Shown: positions 1 to 22,419 of the stretch, piece after piece
How positions within the stretch are numbered: position 1 is the stretch's first letter
How the letters are laid out: every line of letters starts with the position of its first letter
Source of the DNA: an uncultured Paracoccaceae bacterium
GTDB lineage: Bacteria > Pseudomonadota > Alphaproteobacteria > Rhodobacterales > Rhodobacteraceae
Direction: 5' to 3'
DNA length: 64,000 nucleotides
NCBI GenBank assembly: GCA_937872465.1
Contig: CALMSR010000051.1
Span: 62,001 to 126,000 of the forward strand
Made by a program: the position numbers and the translations under genes
The notes under the pieces: model-generated
The model's input: only the letters and a program-made list of their open reading frames with translations
What the model was told of the DNA's origin: nothing
Database searches by the model: none

Positions 1-1596
1 CGCCGCGCCACGCTCTATGCCGGCGCGATCCAGAGCGCGATGCAGCGCCACGCCGTGGTGCCGCTCCTGCTGGCGCGCGACCCGATCCTGATGCAGGCGC
101 TGCGCACCGGCCGCTACGAGGGGGCGGAGGAGCGGCTGGCGAGCTTCCGCGAGGAGATCGGCGCCGGCTCGATCTTCCTGCTCGATCCGGTCGGGCGGAT
201 CGTGGCGGCGAGCGACGAGCGCCCGCGCGAGCAATACGACGGCGACAAGGCCTATTTCACCAAGGCCATGGCCTCGACCGGCACCGAATTCTCGATGATC
301 GAGAACGAGGACGGTGCCTTCAGCTTCCACTATGCCCGGCAGGTCTTGGTCGAGGATCAGGTGCTGGGCGTCGTCGTGGTCACCGTCGATCTCGGGGCGC
401 ATGAGGAGGGCTGGCGGCGCACCGGCATCAAGATCGCCGTGACCGATTCCGAGGGCGACATCCTGCTCGCCTCGGAGCCGGCCTGGCGCAGCAATTCGCT
501 CTCCAGCGTCCTCGCCCCGGGCTCGGAGGCCTCGCTGGTGCGCAATGCGCTCCGGAGCGCGCAGAACACCATCGGCGAGGTTCCCTATACCTATATCGGC
601 GACACGCCCTATCTGCTGGCCGAGGTGCCGGTGGGGTTCCGCAACTGGCGCCTGACCTTCTTCTCGACGCTCGAAGGCGTGCGGGCGCGGGTCAACGGCG
701 GGCTGGCCATGATCGTGATGGTGATGGCCCTTCTGCTGGCGCTCGCCCTCTACATGCTCTCGCAGCGGACGCGGGCGGAGAGCCGGCGCCTGCAGAAGGA
801 ATCGACCGAGCTGCGCGCGCTCAATCGGCGGCTCTCGGACGAGATCGCGGCGCGCAAGCGGCTGGAGAAGAACCTCAAGGAAGCCGAGCAGAGCCTCGAG
901 CAGGCGTCGAAGCTCGCCGCGCTCGGCCAGATGTCGGCGGCCGTGAGCCACGAGCTGAACCAGCCGCTGGCCGCGATGAAGACCTATCTCGCCGGGGCGC
1001 GGCTGCTCCTGCAGCGGCGCCGGCCCGACGAGGCGGTCAGCTCCTTCCAGCGCATCGACGATCTGATCAACCGGATGGGTGGGATCACCCGCCAGCTCAA
1101 GTCCTATGCGCACAAGGGCGAATTGTCGCTCGAGCCGATCGACCTGCGCGACAGCGTGCGGGCGGCGCTGTCCCTGATGGCGCCGCAGCTGACCAAGATG
1201 CCGGTCTCGATCTCGACCACCATGCCCTCGGGGCCGGTGATCGTGCGCGCCGATCCGATCCGCGCCGAGCAGATCATCGTGAACCTGCTGCGCAACGCGC
1301 TCGACGCGGTCAGCTCCCGCACCGACCGGCGCATCAAGATCCTGCTGGTTCAGGGCGAGATGGTGCTCCTGTCGGTGGAGGACAACGGCACCGGCATCAA
1401 GGACCCGGACAAGCTCTTCGAACCCTTCTATACAACCAAGAGGCCCGGCGAGGGTCTCGGGCTCGGTCTCGCGATCTCGGCGGGTCTGGCTGCGGAACTC
1501 GGCGGGCGGCTCGTGGCCCGCAACGCACCGGACGGAGGTGCGGTCTTCGAACTGCTCCTGCCGCGGGACACGGGACAGAGCCAGGCCGCGGAGTAG
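1..1596 (+). CDS. dctB: DctB-like sensor histidine kinase (5' end outside window)
   Basis: This is a membrane sensor kinase of the C4-dicarboxylate (DctB) type, which would phosphorylate the regulator encoded next to it. The frame is open from base 1, so the N-terminus and first membrane helix lie upstream. A periplasmic PAS/Cache-like sensor region runs to about nt 680, and a membrane helix lies near nt 700-765. A coiled-coil linker follows. The H-box (VSHELNQPLAA) has its histidine codon at 949-951. The N-box (IIVNLLRNALDA) is near nt 1275, and the G boxes (EDNGTGI, then GEGLGLGLAIS) lie near nt 1380-1480. It ends 3 bp before the response regulator. The inducer is inferred from family and from dctPQM 17 kb away. 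Confidence 0.9.
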   Translation, partial: RRATLYAGAIQSAMQRHAVVPLLLARDPILMQALRTGRYEGAEERLASFREEIGAGSIFLLDPVGRIVAASDERPREQYDGDKAYFTKAMASTGTEFSMIENEDGAFSFHYARQVLVEDQVLGVVVVTVDLGAHEEGWRRTGIKIAVTDSEGDILLASEPAWRSNSLSSVLAPGSEASLVRNALRSAQNTIGEVPYTYIGDTPYLLAEVPVGFRNWRLTFFSTLEGVRARVNGGLAMIVMVMALLLALALYMLSQRTRAESRRLQKESTELRALNRRLSDEIAARKRLEKNLKEAEQSLEQASKLAALGQMSAAVSHELNQPLAAMKTYLAGARLLLQRRRPDEAVSSFQRIDDLINRMGGITRQLKSYAHKGELSLEPIDLRDSVRAALSLMAPQLTKMPVSISTTMPSGPVIVRADPIRAEQIIVNLLRNALDAVSSRTDRRIKILLVQGEMVLLSVEDNGTGIKDPDKLFEPFYTTKRPGEGLGLGLAISAGLAAELGGRLVARNAPDGGAVFELLLPRDTGQSQAAE

Positions 1597-1599
1597 GAC

Positions 1600-2946
1600 A
1601 TGGACATCAAGCGATCGGTCGCGATCATCGACGACGAGGCGCATCTGCGCGAATCCGTCGCGCAATACCTGCAGCTCTACGGCTTCGACACCGCGACCTA
1701 TGACGCGGCCGAGCCGGCGCTCAAGCAGATCTCGCCCGATTTCGCGGGCATCGTCGTCACCGACATCCGGATGCCCGGCATGGACGGGATGGCGCTGCTG
1801 CGCAAGATGCAGTCGGTCGACCCCGGGTTGCCGGTGATCCTGATGACCGGCCACGGCGACGTGCCGATGGCGGTGGAGGCGATGCGGATCGGCGCCTTCG
1901 ACTTCGTGGAGAAGCCCTTCGAGCCCGAGCGGCTGCGCGATCTCTGCCAGCGCGCCACCGAGATCCGCGCGCGCACGCTGGAGACGCGGGCGCTGCGCCG
2001 GGAGCTCTCCGACGGGACGGTGCTGATGCGGCGGCTGATGGGCAACAGCCCGAGCGTGGCGAAGATGCGCGAGACGATCCTCGACGTCGCCCAGGCCGAC
2101 GGGCATATCCTGATCCTCGGCGAGACCGGCACCGGCAAGAGCCTGGTCGCGCGCGCCATCCACGCCTGCGGCCCGCGCGCGAGCAAGCCCTTCGTCACGC
2201 TGAACTGCGCCTCGGTCCAGGCCGGCCAGGTCGAGGCGATGCTCTTCGGCGCCGAGGACTGGCCGGAGAAGCCCCTGATCGACCAGGCCGAGGGCGGGAC
2301 GCTCTGCCTCGAGGACGTGGAGGATCTGCCGCCCGGCGCCCAGGCGCGGCTGCTCGAGACGATCAACGCCGCCGAACCGACCGGGGGTGCGGCGCGGCCG
2401 CTCAACATGCGCATCGTCGCGGTATCGAGCCGGCTCGGCAACAGCCCGCCGCCGGCGGAGGTGATGCGCGACGACCTATACTTCCGCCTCGCCGGGCTGA
2501 TCGTCGAGGTTCCGCCGCTGCGCGCGCGCGGCGAGGACATCCTCGCCCTCTTCTCGCATTTCACCATCCAGTTCGCGGAGGAATACGGCTGCGAGCCGCC
2601 CACGCTCAATGCCGGCGACGCCGCCAATCTCGTGCAGGCGCCCTGGCCGGGGAACATCCGCCAGCTGATCAATCTCGCGGAGCGCGCGGTGCTCCAGGCC
2701 CGGCGCGGGGAGACCAATATCTCCGCCCTGCTGATCGACGACGGCTTCGACGGCCCGGTGATGGCGGTCGACGCCGAGAAGCCGCTCAAGGAGCATGTGG
2801 ACGCCTTCGAGAAGATGCTCATCGATCACGCGCTGCGGCGGAACCAGGGGTCGGTGGCGGCGGTGATGACCGAGCTCGCCCTGCCCCGCCGCACGCTGAA
2901 CGAGAAGATGGCGAAATACGGGCTGAGCCGGCAGGATTATCTCTAG
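1600..2946 (+). CDS. dctD: DctD-like NtrC-family response regulator lacking the GAFTGA motif
   Basis: This 448-residue regulator has three parts. The receiver domain (about 1-120) has acidic pocket D11/D12 and phospho-acceptor D55. The AAA+ domain (about 145-365) has Walker A GETGTGKS at 174-181. The C-terminus carries a Fis-type helix-turn-helix (about 400-448). Ordinary DctD proteins contact sigma54 through a GAFTGA loop. Here the corresponding stretch (about 213-229, LFGAEDWPEKPLIDQ) has no such motif. The Walker B region reads TLCLEDVE instead of the usual TLFLDE, so the acidic pair is E238-D239. It probably acts as a phosphorylation-controlled activator that does not use sigma54, as known for Rhodobacter NtrC; that is an inference. 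It follows dctB with a 3-bp gap. Confidence 0.9.
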   Translation: MDIKRSVAIIDDEAHLRESVAQYLQLYGFDTATYDAAEPALKQISPDFAGIVVTDIRMPGMDGMALLRKMQSVDPGLPVILMTGHGDVPMAVEAMRIGAFDFVEKPFEPERLRDLCQRATEIRARTLETRALRRELSDGTVLMRRLMGNSPSVAKMRETILDVAQADGHILILGETGTGKSLVARAIHACGPRASKPFVTLNCASVQAGQVEAMLFGAEDWPEKPLIDQAEGGTLCLEDVEDLPPGAQARLLETINAAEPTGGAARPLNMRIVAVSSRLGNSPPPAEVMRDDLYFRLAGLIVEVPPLRARGEDILALFSHFTIQFAEEYGCEPPTLNAGDAANLVQAPWPGNIRQLINLAERAVLQARRGETNISALLIDDGFDGPVMAVDAEKPLKEHVDAFEKMLIDHALRRNQGSVAAVMTELALPRRTLNEKMAKYGLSRQDYL

Positions 2947-19096: not shown

Positions 19097-19220
19097 CTTG
19101 GCGCCGGAACGGGGTGTCGCGATCGCATCGGCGCATGCTGCGGCCGCGCCGGGAGAGGCGCAAGGGGAAAACGCCGCGACAGGCCCCGGCGCCGCCGGGG
19201 AGGCCCTGTTCGCAGCGCGC

Positions 19221-19259
19221 TTGAACGGATCGCGGCATTCGTGCGATATTCCGGAATAT
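19221..19259 (+). promoter_or_regulatory. dctP promoter with overlapping 14-bp palindrome
   Basis: TTGAAC at 19221-19226 and GATATT at 19245-19250 are spaced 18 bp and fit a sigma70-type promoter about 60 nt upstream of the dctP start. The sequence ATATTCCGGAATAT (19246-19259) is a perfect palindrome that overlaps the -10 box and the likely start site, so it looks like an operator. I found no -24/-12 sigma54 promoter in the 220-bp gap. Confidence 0.5.
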
Positions 19260-19316: not shown

Positions 19317-20324
19317 ATGCAACTGCGCCACATCCTGACCGCCGCCGCGAGCCTTCTCGTGCTGGGCGCGGCCCCCGCCTTCGCCACCTGCGAGGATGGC
19401 GAGATTCTGATCAAGTTCGCCCATGTCACGAATGCCGACAATCATCCCAAGGGAATCGCGGCACAACTCTTCGCCGACCGCGTCAACGAGGAGATGAACG
19501 GCAAGGTCTGCGTCGAGGTCTATCCGAACTCGACCCTCTACGACGACGACAAGGTGCTCGAGGCGATGCTGGCCGGCGACGTGCAGATGGCGGCGCCCTC
19601 GCTCTCGAAATTCGAGACCTTCACCAAGAAGCTGCGCCTCTACGACCTGCCCTTCGTCTTCGCCGACATAGACGCGGTCGACCGCTACCAGAATTCCGAG
19701 GACGGCCAGGCGCTGCTGGAATCGATGCAGCGCAAGGGGCTGCTCGGCCTCGCCTACTGGCATTCCGGCATGAAGCAGCTCTCGGCCAGCAAGCCGCTGC
19801 TGGTGCCCGAGGACGCCGCGGGGCTGAAGTTCCGCATCCAGCCCTCGGACGTGCTCGAGGCGCAGTTCGTGGCGCTGGGCGCCAATCCGCAGAAGATGGC
19901 CTTCGCCGAGGTCTATGGCGCGCTGCAGACCGGCGTGGTCGACGGGCAGGAGAATACCTGGTCGAACACCTACGGCCAGAAGTACTTCGAGGTGCAGGAC
20001 GGCATCACCGAGACCAACCACGGCGTGCTCGATTACATGGTCGTGGTCTCCACCGATTTCTGGGAAGGCCTGCCCGACGACGTGCGCGACCAGCTCGGCA
20101 CGATCATGGCCGAGGTCACCGCCGAGCGGAACGCCGCCGTGGTGCAGATCGAGGAGGAATCCAAGGAGGCGATCATCGCCACCGGCGCCGAGGTCCGCGA
20201 GCTCACGCCCGAGCAGCGGCTGCTCTGGGTCGAGGCGATGAAGCCGGTCTGGGACCAGTTCTCCGGCGAGATCGGCGTGGAGGTGATCGAATCGGCGGTC
20301 TCCTACAACGAGGTCACCAACTAG
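19317..20324 (+). CDS. dctP: TRAP transporter substrate-binding protein
   Basis: This is a 335-residue periplasmic binding protein of the DctP family, the solute receptor of a TRAP C4-dicarboxylate or related organic-acid importer. A signal peptide covers about 1-23 (AAPAFA cleavage). The mature part carries the family's IKFAHVTNADNHP start. The conserved ligand-binding region is LKFRIQPSDVLEAQFVALGANP, with the carboxylate-clamping Arg in FRIQ. GALQTGVVDGQENTW follows. AGAGG precedes the ATG at 19317. It is first in the dctPQM operon. The substrate is inferred from family and from the DctBD pair. Confidence 0.92.
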   Translation: MQLRHILTAAASLLVLGAAPAFATCEDGEILIKFAHVTNADNHPKGIAAQLFADRVNEEMNGKVCVEVYPNSTLYDDDKVLEAMLAGDVQMAAPSLSKFETFTKKLRLYDLPFVFADIDAVDRYQNSEDGQALLESMQRKGLLGLAYWHSGMKQLSASKPLLVPEDAAGLKFRIQPSDVLEAQFVALGANPQKMAFAEVYGALQTGVVDGQENTWSNTYGQKYFEVQDGITETNHGVLDYMVVVSTDFWEGLPDDVRDQLGTIMAEVTAERNAAVVQIEEESKEAIIATGAEVRELTPEQRLLWVEAMKPVWDQFSGEIGVEVIESAVSYNEVTN

Positions 20325-20415: not shown

Positions 20416-21039
20416 ATGTCCGCCGAGCCGAAGTCGGCGCTGGGGCGTGCGGTCAACGAGATCGAGGAGACGCTGATCGCGGTCCTTCTCGGGCTGATGA
20501 CCCTCATCACCTTCGCCAATGTCGTCGCCCGCTACGTCTTCAACGCCAATATCCTCTGGGCGCTGGAGGCCACCGTCTTCCTCTTCGCCTGGCTGGTGCT
20601 GATCGGCGCCTCCTACGTGGTCAAGATCTCGGGCCATCTCGGCGTCGACGCGGTGGTGCGCCTGCTGCCGCCGGGACCGCGCCGCGCCATGACGCTCGTC
20701 GCCGCGGCCTGCTGCGTGGTCTATGCGGTGCTGCTGCTCGTCGGGTCCTGGCAGTACTGGGCGCCCTTCGTCGGCAGGCAGGCCTGGTACGAGGTCAACG
20801 ACATCCGCATGCCCGACTGGCTGCGCTTCATCGAGCCGATCCTCAACGAGGGTGAACCCTACGAGAAGCTGCCGCGCTTCATCCCCTATGCGGCGCTGCC
20901 GCTCGGCATGGCGCTGCTGACGTTCCGCTTCGTCGAGGCCGGATGGAGGATCTGGACCGGAGAGACCGAGCTGATGATCGCCAGCCACGAGGCCGAGGAC
21001 ATGGTCGCCGAGGCCGCCGCCAGGACGAAGGAAGACTGA
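20416..21039 (+). CDS. dctQ: TRAP transporter small membrane subunit
   Basis: This is a 207-residue four-helix inner-membrane protein of the DctQ family. The first helix contains IAVLLGLMTLITFANVVARYVF, followed by the LEATVFLFAWLVLIGASYVVK segment characteristic of DctQ. It partners with DctM to form the Na+-driven TRAP permease. There is a longer than usual periplasmic loop (about 115-155). AGGGAAGGG lies upstream of the ATG. It ends 3 bp before dctM. Confidence 0.9.
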   Translation: MSAEPKSALGRAVNEIEETLIAVLLGLMTLITFANVVARYVFNANILWALEATVFLFAWLVLIGASYVVKISGHLGVDAVVRLLPPGPRRAMTLVAAACCVVYAVLLLVGSWQYWAPFVGRQAWYEVNDIRMPDWLRFIEPILNEGEPYEKLPRFIPYAALPLGMALLTFRFVEAGWRIWTGETELMIASHEAEDMVAEAAARTKED

Positions 21040-21042
21040 GCC

Positions 21043-22419
21043 ATGGACGTGGTCTTCCTCTTCCTGATGGTCATCGGCTTCATGCTGATCGGCGTGCCGA
21101 TCGCGGTGTCGCTCGGGCTTTCGTCGATCATCTTCATGCTGGCCTTCTCCGACACCTCCCTGGGGTCGATCGCGCAGCAGCTCTTCAACGCCTTCGCCGG
21201 CCATTACACCCTGCTGGCGATCCCGTTCTTCATCCTCGCCTCCACCTTCATGTCGACGGGCGGCGTGGCCAAGCGCATCATCCGCTTCGCCATCGCCGTG
21301 GTGGGGCATTTCCGCGGCGGGCTCGCCATTGCGGCGGTCTTCGCCTGCATGCTCTTCGCCGCGCTCTCCGGGTCCTCGCCGGCCACGGTCGTGGCCATCG
21401 GCTCGATCTGCATCGCCGGCATGACCTCGGTGGGCTATTCCAAGGACTTCGCCGCCGGGGTGATCTGCAACGCCGGCACGCTCGGCATCCTGATCCCGCC
21501 CTCCATCGTGATGGTGGTCTATGCCGCCGCGGTCGATGTCTCGGTGGGGCGGATGTTTCTCGCCGGCGTGCTGCCGGGGCTGCTCGCAGGGCTGATGCTG
21601 ATGATCGGCATCTACATCGCCGCGCGCTGGCGGAACCTGCCCTCCCAGCCCTGGGCCGGCTGGGAAGAGGTGATCGCCTCGGCGCGGGACGCCGGCTGGG
21701 GCCTTTTCCTGATCGTGATCATCCTCGGCGGCATCTACGGCGGCATCTTCACGCCGACCGAGGCCGCGGCGGTGGCGGCGGTCTATGCCTTCCTGATCGC
21801 GAATTTCGTCTATCGCGACATGGGGCCGCTGCATGATCCCGTGGGCGAGCGCAACCACTCGCTCCTGAAACGCCCCTGGGCGCTCGTCACCGCCTGGGTG
21901 CATCGCGACGCCCGGCACGCGCTCTTCGAGAGCGGCAAGGTGACCATCATGCTGATGTTCATCATCGCCAACGCGCTGATCCTGAAGCACGTGCTGACCG
22001 ACGAGCAGATCCCGCAGATGATCACTGACGCGCTGCTGAGCGCCGGCTTCGGCGCAGTGACGTTCCTGATCATCGTCAACGTGATCCTGCTGATCGGCGG
22101 GCAGTTCATGGAGCCCTCGGGGCTGGTGGTGATCGTGGCACCGCTGGTCTTCCCGATCGCCATCGAGCTCGGGATCGACCCCATCCATCTCGGCATCATC
22201 ATGGTGGTGAACATGGAGATCGGCATGATCACCCCGCCGGTCGGGCTCAATCTCTTCGTCACCTCCTCGGTGGCGTCCATGCCGATGATGCGCGTGGTCA
22301 GGGCCGCCCTGCCCTGGCTCGGCATCCTGTTCCTGTTCCTGATCATCGTGACCTACGTGCCCTGGATCTCCACGGTCCTGCCCACCTGGTTCATGGGGCC
22401 CGAGATGATCATCCGCTAG
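21043..22419 (+). CDS. dctM: TRAP transporter large permease
   Basis: This 458-residue channel-forming subunit has 12 or more hydrophobic helices. Family landmarks are the N-terminal IGVPIAVSLGLSS helix, the SGSSPATVVAIGSI pore hairpin, GTLGILIPPSIVMVVYA, TPTEAAAVAAVYA, and the second hairpin GMITPPVGLNLFVTSSV. An insertion near residues 262-300 (PVGERNHSLLKRPWALVTAW) lengthens the cytosolic loop compared with typical DctM of about 430 residues. It is the last gene of dctPQM. Confidence 0.92.
   Translation: MDVVFLFLMVIGFMLIGVPIAVSLGLSSIIFMLAFSDTSLGSIAQQLFNAFAGHYTLLAIPFFILASTFMSTGGVAKRIIRFAIAVVGHFRGGLAIAAVFACMLFAALSGSSPATVVAIGSICIAGMTSVGYSKDFAAGVICNAGTLGILIPPSIVMVVYAAAVDVSVGRMFLAGVLPGLLAGLMLMIGIYIAARWRNLPSQPWAGWEEVIASARDAGWGLFLIVIILGGIYGGIFTPTEAAAVAAVYAFLIANFVYRDMGPLHDPVGERNHSLLKRPWALVTAWVHRDARHALFESGKVTIMLMFIIANALILKHVLTDEQIPQMITDALLSAGFGAVTFLIIVNVILLIGGQFMEPSGLVVIVAPLVFPIAIELGIDPIHLGIIMVVNMEIGMITPPVGLNLFVTSSVASMPMMRVVRAALPWLGILFLFLIIVTYVPWISTVLPTWFMGPEMIIR

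Follow-up and report, generated by a model that had tools for sequence, protein, structure and literature searches.

The regulator locus and its domain architecture

The 64 kb stretch of DNA analyzed here, henceforth the window, begins within the gene for a DctB-like sensor kinase, which is followed by the gene for a DctD/MifR-like response regulator that we name DctD-A. A set of dctPQM genes, unlinked to the regulator, lies further downstream. The features referred to below are as follows:

1..1596, + strand: 3' part of the gene for a DctB-like sensor kinase, with its start upstream of the window (from domains and structure matches)
1600..2946, + strand: DctD-A, a DctD/MifR-like response regulator of 448 aa lacking GAFTGA
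1618..1941, + strand: receiver domain, residues 7-114, with the phospho-acceptor D55 at 1762-1764
2119..2142, + strand: Walker A GETGTGKS, residues 174-181
2242..2286, + strand: site of the deleted L1 (GAFTGA) loop, LFGAEDWPEKPLIDQ, residues 215-229 (from alignments)
2311..2316, + strand: swapped Walker B acids E238-D239
2467..2490, + strand: arginine fingers R290 and R296 (RDDLYFRL)
2803..2919, + strand: Fis-type HTH, residues 402-440, with the recognition helix PRRTLNEKMAKYGL (Pfam HTH_8)
19220..19250, + strand: weak dctP promoter candidate CTTGAAC-N18-GATATT, read by eye
19317..20324, + strand: dctP, TRAP binding protein
20416..21039, + strand: dctQ-like TRAP small permease (from position and reading)
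21043..22419, + strand: dctM-like TRAP large permease (from position and reading)

A preliminary description of this locus had presented the regulator as a DctD with intact receiver, Walker A and Fis-type parts, which has lost GAFTGA and carries E-D in place of D-E in Walker B. This account of the protein itself is borne out. Pfam assigns Response_reg to residues 7-114, Sigma54_activat to 146-300, AAA_lid_14 to 308-376 and HTH_8 to 402-440. Alignment to the three GAFTGA-bearing regulators of the same genome (L001, L002 and L003) shows the motif to be deleted rather than displaced, which rules out an intact copy elsewhere in the protein, and sets the Walker B sequence TLCLED, with its E238-D239, against D-E in all three. 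Walker A, both arginine fingers, the sensor II arginine and D55 are intact. In the same alignment, the NtrX-like L004 of the source genome lacks GAFTGA and retains D-E. It adjoins the NtrC-like L001 (C51:46556-47686), which retains GAFTGA, unlike the Rhodobacterales NtrC proteins treated in the consulted excerpt of PMC10274813; the labels NtrC and NtrX were assigned to these two genes by reading.

The predicted structure of DctD-A has a mean pLDDT of 82 and a pTM of 0.51, such that the folds of its domains are usable and their arrangement is not. The nearest solved structures to the model are NtrX, followed by NtrC1, NtrC4, LuxO, FleQ and VpsR, and the receiver matches a solved DctD receiver.

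Conservation of DctD-A across the order

Of 292 genomes surveyed from the order, 289 have an orthologue of DctD-A, the exceptions being G110, G141 and G227. With the exception of these three and G182, whose copy is split, every genome matches DctD-A at E below 1e-150 (288/292). Among the matches listed, in which genome completeness is 99-100%, the orthologues of the survey genomes other than the source genome are 56-60% identical to DctD-A. A scan of named genomes, for which the best 80 of 585 confirmed stretches were used, contributed 71 stretches at 53-60% identity, nearly all labelled Rhodobacterales (L133-L203), and nine from outside Rhodobacterales at 42-44% (L204-L212). The resulting set of 107 distinct orthologues comprises 30 and a further 4 from the survey genomes, the first G182 piece, the 71 named copies and one from a plasmid. 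In G182 the orthologue (L109/L122) consists of two overlapping pieces covering residues 6-307 and 305-448, with a break near residue 306 that is either genuine or an assembly error; this genome has no sigma54 match.

The preliminary description had proposed that the GAFTGA and Walker B columns be aligned across Rhodobacterales. When this was done, a GAFTGA-like motif was found in none of the 107 orthologues, as against all 13 relatives chosen for possessing it. At the first Walker B position, all 107 have E and the 13 relatives D; at the second, 102 have D, four G and one N, where the relatives uniformly have E. A sequencing error or a pseudogene is ruled out as the cause of the loss by the 107 orthologues. 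Walker A (GxxGxGK[ST]), D55 and each of the arginine fingers are kept throughout (107/107), and the sensor II arginine is kept in 106, the sole miss being the split copy of G182. The switch asparagine survives in only five orthologues, the window copy included, versus 13/13 relatives, and residues of sensor I are likewise changed. The stretch from F216 to G233, which spans 25 residues in the 13 relatives, has 16-20 residues in 106 of the 107, making the loop-bearing segment 5-9 residues shorter. The remaining orthologue, L159, has 30 residues here, with a repeat-like insertion (AETGAEIGAEIGAA) at the position of the deleted loop.

Three plasmid regulators of Rhodobacterales were kept outside both the 107 and the 13. 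Two of these DctD-like proteins (L214 and L217) lack GAFTGA and the third (L216) has GAFPGA, which suggests further losses of the motif.

Distribution of sigma54

The source genome has one sigma54 gene in addition to its three GAFTGA-bearing regulators. Across the 292 genomes, the sigma54 DNA-binding domain is matched at E <= 0.001 in 79, of which 73 pass the family cut-off and nine are short matches with E-values of 5e-5 to 9e-4; the control for this search was positive in 4 of 14 known genomes. The remaining 213 genomes have no match to this domain at E <= 0.001, and all of them retain the regulator, one as the split copy. Conversely, the three genomes without a DctD-A orthologue all match sigma54. 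Retention of the gene in 213 genomes with no sigma54 match is the strongest evidence that DctD-A is independent of sigma54, and we regard this independence as close to certain for the family as a whole, in agreement with the earlier proposal that the need for sigma54 has been lost. In the source species, which has sigma54 and three GAFTGA-bearing regulators, an indirect link may nevertheless be conceivable. Jannaschia sp. CCS1 is described as lacking sigma54 (PMC3162934, in excerpt), and Cereibacter sphaeroides as having four bona fide family members with the motif (PMC11999139, in excerpt).

Genomic neighborhood, partner kinase and phylogenetic affinities

The stop codon of the kinase gene lies 3 bases before the ATG of the regulator, and the two genes occur together in all 20 context stretches (15-31 kb), with purQ just upstream in 19; the neighbors purQ, rne and ccdA were named by reading. 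The window dctP, dctQ and dctM have no match in these 20 stretches. No alpha-ketoglutarate permease was recognized, by reading, among those of the conserved neighbor families that could be identified.

The sensor of the kinase matches solved DctB sensors (3by9, E 1.7e-15; 2zbb, E 5.9e-10). Two of its positions, the arginine of FRPYF and the lysine of VVK, are those that we take to bind the ligand in DctB. Neither is kept in any of 20 sensors of the DctD-A clade, whereas among 10 comparison kinases the arginine is kept in all nine that are readable there and the lysine in all 10. The window sensor has lysine for that arginine and the G198 sensor has arginine for that lysine, which makes the change a mild one in both.

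In a tree of 38 rows, the purQ-linked regulators form a monophyletic clade (100/100), within which the window protein and that of G198 branch first; in this tree the bootstrap is not fully settled, the loop columns were kept and some long branches are flagged. Loss of GAFTGA is not special to the source genome, as the oldest split of the clade already has it. In a second, quick tree, from which the Walker A and L1-Walker B columns were removed, regulators from Pseudomonas, Azospirillum and an alphaproteobacterial MAG fall together with the purQ-linked clade (SH-aLRT 98), while the dctP-linked DctD proteins of Rhodobacterales group with the GAFTGA-bearing DctD of G110 and G227 (99). Two changes of GAFTGA state are seen on this tree. 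The recognition helix PRRTLNEKM is common to DctD-A and those Pseudomonas, Azospirillum and MAG regulators, as against PRKT[FL]YDKL in most dctP-linked copies.

In three of the Pseudomonas stretches (L207, L211 and L212) an MFS gene, read as alpha-ketoglutarate-permease-like, lies downstream of the regulator. Two TGAGCGG-type palindromes are present at this regulator/MFS locus in L207 and L211, and a TGGCAC-type sigma54 element in L207 and L212; the L211 stretch ends with the start of such an element. Pseudomonas aeruginosa MifR controls an alpha-ketoglutarate permease together with RpoN, according to the consulted part of PMC4482717. Judged from the clade and the recognition helix shared with these permease-linked regulators, DctD-A is closer to the MifR type, MifR itself being compared by its description, than to the dctP-linked DctD regulators. 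The MifR-type relatives in Pseudomonas have GAFTGA, D-E and -24/-12-like elements, none of which is found for DctD-A. The two altered sensor positions and the absence of a recognized permease neighbor further set the DctD-A clade apart from them.

A putative DctD-A site, TGAGCGG-N4-CCGCTCA, was derived from the Pseudomonas relatives. It occurs 13 times per strand in 14 genomes, versus 8 in the reversed control (6 versus 3 in the source genome), and the search of these genomes yielded no convincing DctD-A regulon; the two AT-centered sites (L265 of the source genome and L268) adjoin genes that by reading are unrelated.

The dctP promoters of relatives and the dctP-linked paralogue DctD-B

A close dctP (E <= 1e-120) is present in 76 of 121 genomes and missing from 45. 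The DctP (TRAP binding protein) family is matched fourteen times in the source genome (4.4 Mb). Upstream regions of dctP were collected from 71 genomes, one per genome (L073-L101, L111, L219-L258 and that of the source genome); coming from related genomes, these regions are not independent. The palindrome TGTGCGG-N4-CCGCACA is found with up to 3 mismatches in 59 of the 71 and is perfect in 33, compared with 0/71 perfect and at most 4/71 within 3 mismatches over ten rounds of shuffled controls. Two copies of this box, 32-34 bases apart, are present in 43 regions. The Sinorhizobium meliloti DctD site is given as TGTGCGgaaatCCGCACA, with tandem sites there too (PMC11077940, in excerpt), and the palindrome is this site. 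Assignment of these boxes to DctD-A was considered and dropped, as a second DctD, here termed DctD-B, adjoins dctP in many relatives.

DctD-B is encoded directly upstream of dctP, and was found adjacent in at least 43 of the 59 boxed regions and in none of the 12 unboxed ones; the former number is a lower bound because in 40 of the 71 regions only about 0.8 kb upstream was covered. From this adjacency and the published DctD site, DctD-B would be the protein that binds the boxes. GAFTGA is missing from 20 of the 22 copies that could be aligned over the loop, and in these 20 the Walker A lysine is replaced by another residue; G110 and G227 supply the two copies with both GAFTGA and the lysine. 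In three genera, represented by G198 (L284 1501-2109), G174 (L288) and G126 (L289), the dctP-linked regulator is reduced to 203, 199 and 195 residues, respectively, and consists of a receiver and an HTH with the AAA+ domain gone. Downstream of each of these short genes come a single box (with 1, 1 and 2 mismatches, respectively) and then dctP, and no sigma54 match was found in the three genomes. When the G198 protein was searched against 196 genomes, 84 of them matched at E <= 1e-42; of the matches that were listed, G174 and G126 alone gave a full-length one within a short open frame.

A -24/-12 element (with at most 1 mismatch, within 170 bases of the start codon) is present in two of the 71 regions, L073 and L111, and its occurrence in the other 69 is at the level of shuffled sequence. 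These two belong to G110 and G227, which have sigma54 and a GAFTGA-bearing DctD just upstream of dctP; being of one genus, they amount to one independent case of such a promoter. With these two set aside, 35 of 41 two-box regions have a [CG]TTG 145-151 bases downstream of where box 1 begins, as against 0-8 of the 41 in other windows of equal width. When aligned on this [CG]TTG, position +29 is T in 33 of the 35, which is where a -10 hexamer preceded by a 17-base spacer would end, the remaining -10 bases being weak. On this basis the boxed dctP promoters of the relatives are read as sigma70-type. The box is also present in 41 of 47 dctP regions from genomes without a sigma54 match. C4-dicarboxylate control does seem to have moved away from sigma54 in much of the order; such a move had been proposed earlier from the window protein, but the evidence for it concerns DctD-B.

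Mode of action of DctD-A and alternative explanations

Taken as a whole, the observations on DctD-A are probably best explained by a phosphorylation-controlled regulator of NtrC-family build that acts without sigma54. The DctB-like kinase encoded at 1-1596 of the window would phosphorylate D55, binding of ATP without normal hydrolysis would aid assembly of the protein on DNA, and DctD-A would then act on sigma70-type promoters. The model for this is Rhodobacter capsulatus NtrC, for which ATP binding rather than hydrolysis is reported to be needed at a sigma70 promoter (PMC10274813, in excerpt). The two proteins, likened by description, belong to the NtrC family, lack GAFTGA and keep the ATP-binding site. 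They are not orthologues, the NtrC-like gene of the source genome being L001, which possesses the motif.

The swapped E-D pair might still hydrolyze ATP, E238 being invariant. DctD-A could alternatively be pictured as an ATPase that remains active through a re-wired Walker B, with E238 holding the magnesium and D239 serving as the base, and that remodels a sigma70 complex in the manner proposed for Caulobacter NtrC. The latter also lacks GAFTGA and is reported to need both ATP binding and hydrolysis (PMC10274813, in excerpt). The conserved Walker A, arginine fingers and sensor II and the switch asparagine of the window copy would fit such an enzyme. Nevertheless, we consider it unlikely, given that five of the 107 orthologues have G or N in place of the catalytic acid, 102 have lost the switch asparagine, and no L1 loop is left for the transmission of force.

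The role originally ascribed to the gene, that of the DctD of the window dctPQM, driving this operon from a sigma70 promoter, would account for the presence of both in one window and for the resemblance of the kinase sensor and the receiver to solved DctB and DctD structures. No -24/-12 element was found upstream of the window dctP, as the preliminary description had stated. The sigma70-like promoter that it had described there is less secure, with no site at the promoter-scan threshold and only the weak CTTGAAC-N18-GATATT readable, which matches the template of the relatives' dctP promoters loosely. No match within 3 mismatches to the DctD box, the published S. meliloti site, lies upstream of this dctP. 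A weak half-box, CGTGCGATATTCCGGAAT, is found at 19240, with a PWM score of 4.3, whereas the lowest-scoring box of the relatives reaches 11.4. Only one PWM hit in the 64 kb window ranks above it, and 3 out of 500 shuffled versions of the 400-base region score as high, yet the site would overlap the presumed -10. The same presumed -10 is also overlapped by a perfect 14-base palindrome, ATATTCCGGAATAT, at 19246-19259. Without a proper box, and with a weak match and a loose promoter, the dctP promoter argument neither proves nor excludes control by DctD-A.

All 37 candidates in the source genome were scored without finding a dctP-linked DctD, the best match being the window protein itself, so DctD-A could have taken over that role. 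However, DctD boxes are not in excess in the source genome (7 versus 9 in the reversed control), at least 43 of the 71 dctP regions have an adjacent DctD of their own, a close dctP is missing from 45 of the 121 genomes, and the two sensor positions common to DctB/MifS-type kinases are changed. The gene is, rather, a purQ-linked paralogue with a different recognition helix, and its identification as the DctD of this operon is doubtful enough that we do not adopt it; the window dctPQM stands as a candidate target of DctD-A, not an established one.

Continued use of sigma54 through a non-canonical loop, for which the sigma54 gene of the source genome and the otherwise retained AAA+ fold might be cited, is very improbable; the 213 genomes that keep the regulator without a sigma54 match are a strong counter-argument, to which the shortening of the loop stretch in 106 of the 107 orthologues adds. 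That DctD-A is a decaying gene without function, as the several lost catalytic residues and the one split copy could intimate, is scarcely credible, being contradicted by the invariance of D55, Walker A and the arginine fingers, the strong matches in 288 of 292 genomes and the fixed neighborhood.

Evolutionary implications

The sigma54-independent regulator favored here shares with S. meliloti DctD the domain order, a DctB-like partner and a similar receiver, and differs from it in lacking GAFTGA. Like DctD-A, DctD-B is without the motif, and the losses are separate; unlike DctD-A, DctD-B has lost the ordinary Walker A, in three genera the AAA+ domain as well, and is associated with boxed sigma70-type dctP promoters. 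It appears reasonably likely that the sigma54 machines of the two paralogues were dismantled independently. DctD-A would have kept ATP binding while losing the loop and swapping the Walker B acids. DctD-B would have lost the loop and the ordinary Walker A and, in the three genera, its AAA+ domain altogether, so that only receiver and HTH remain there in a protein of about 200 residues; the ancestral boxes would have been kept, and the -24/-12 element would have given way to a sigma70 promoter at a constant distance.

Family members that lack GAFTGA and act with sigma70 include TyrR, DhaR and HupR (PMC3162934, in excerpt), and we recognized no report in the open-licence literature of GAFTGA-less DctD paralogues or of AAA+-less DctD in Rhodobacterales. 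Together with R. capsulatus NtrC, the sigma54-free members have so far been scattered cases, whereas here one is carried by 289 of 292 genomes. As most of these have no sigma54 match, the label "sigma-54-dependent" attached to the protein in a Paracoccus record is misleading. If the proposed history of the two paralogues is true, it would show, in readable steps, how enhancer-ATPase control gave way to ordinary activation at a single operon. The states of DctD-B, namely intact, with the ATPase site lost and with the ATPase domain deleted, share one kind of box, so that the way in which such a protein activates sigma70 polymerase would become directly testable.
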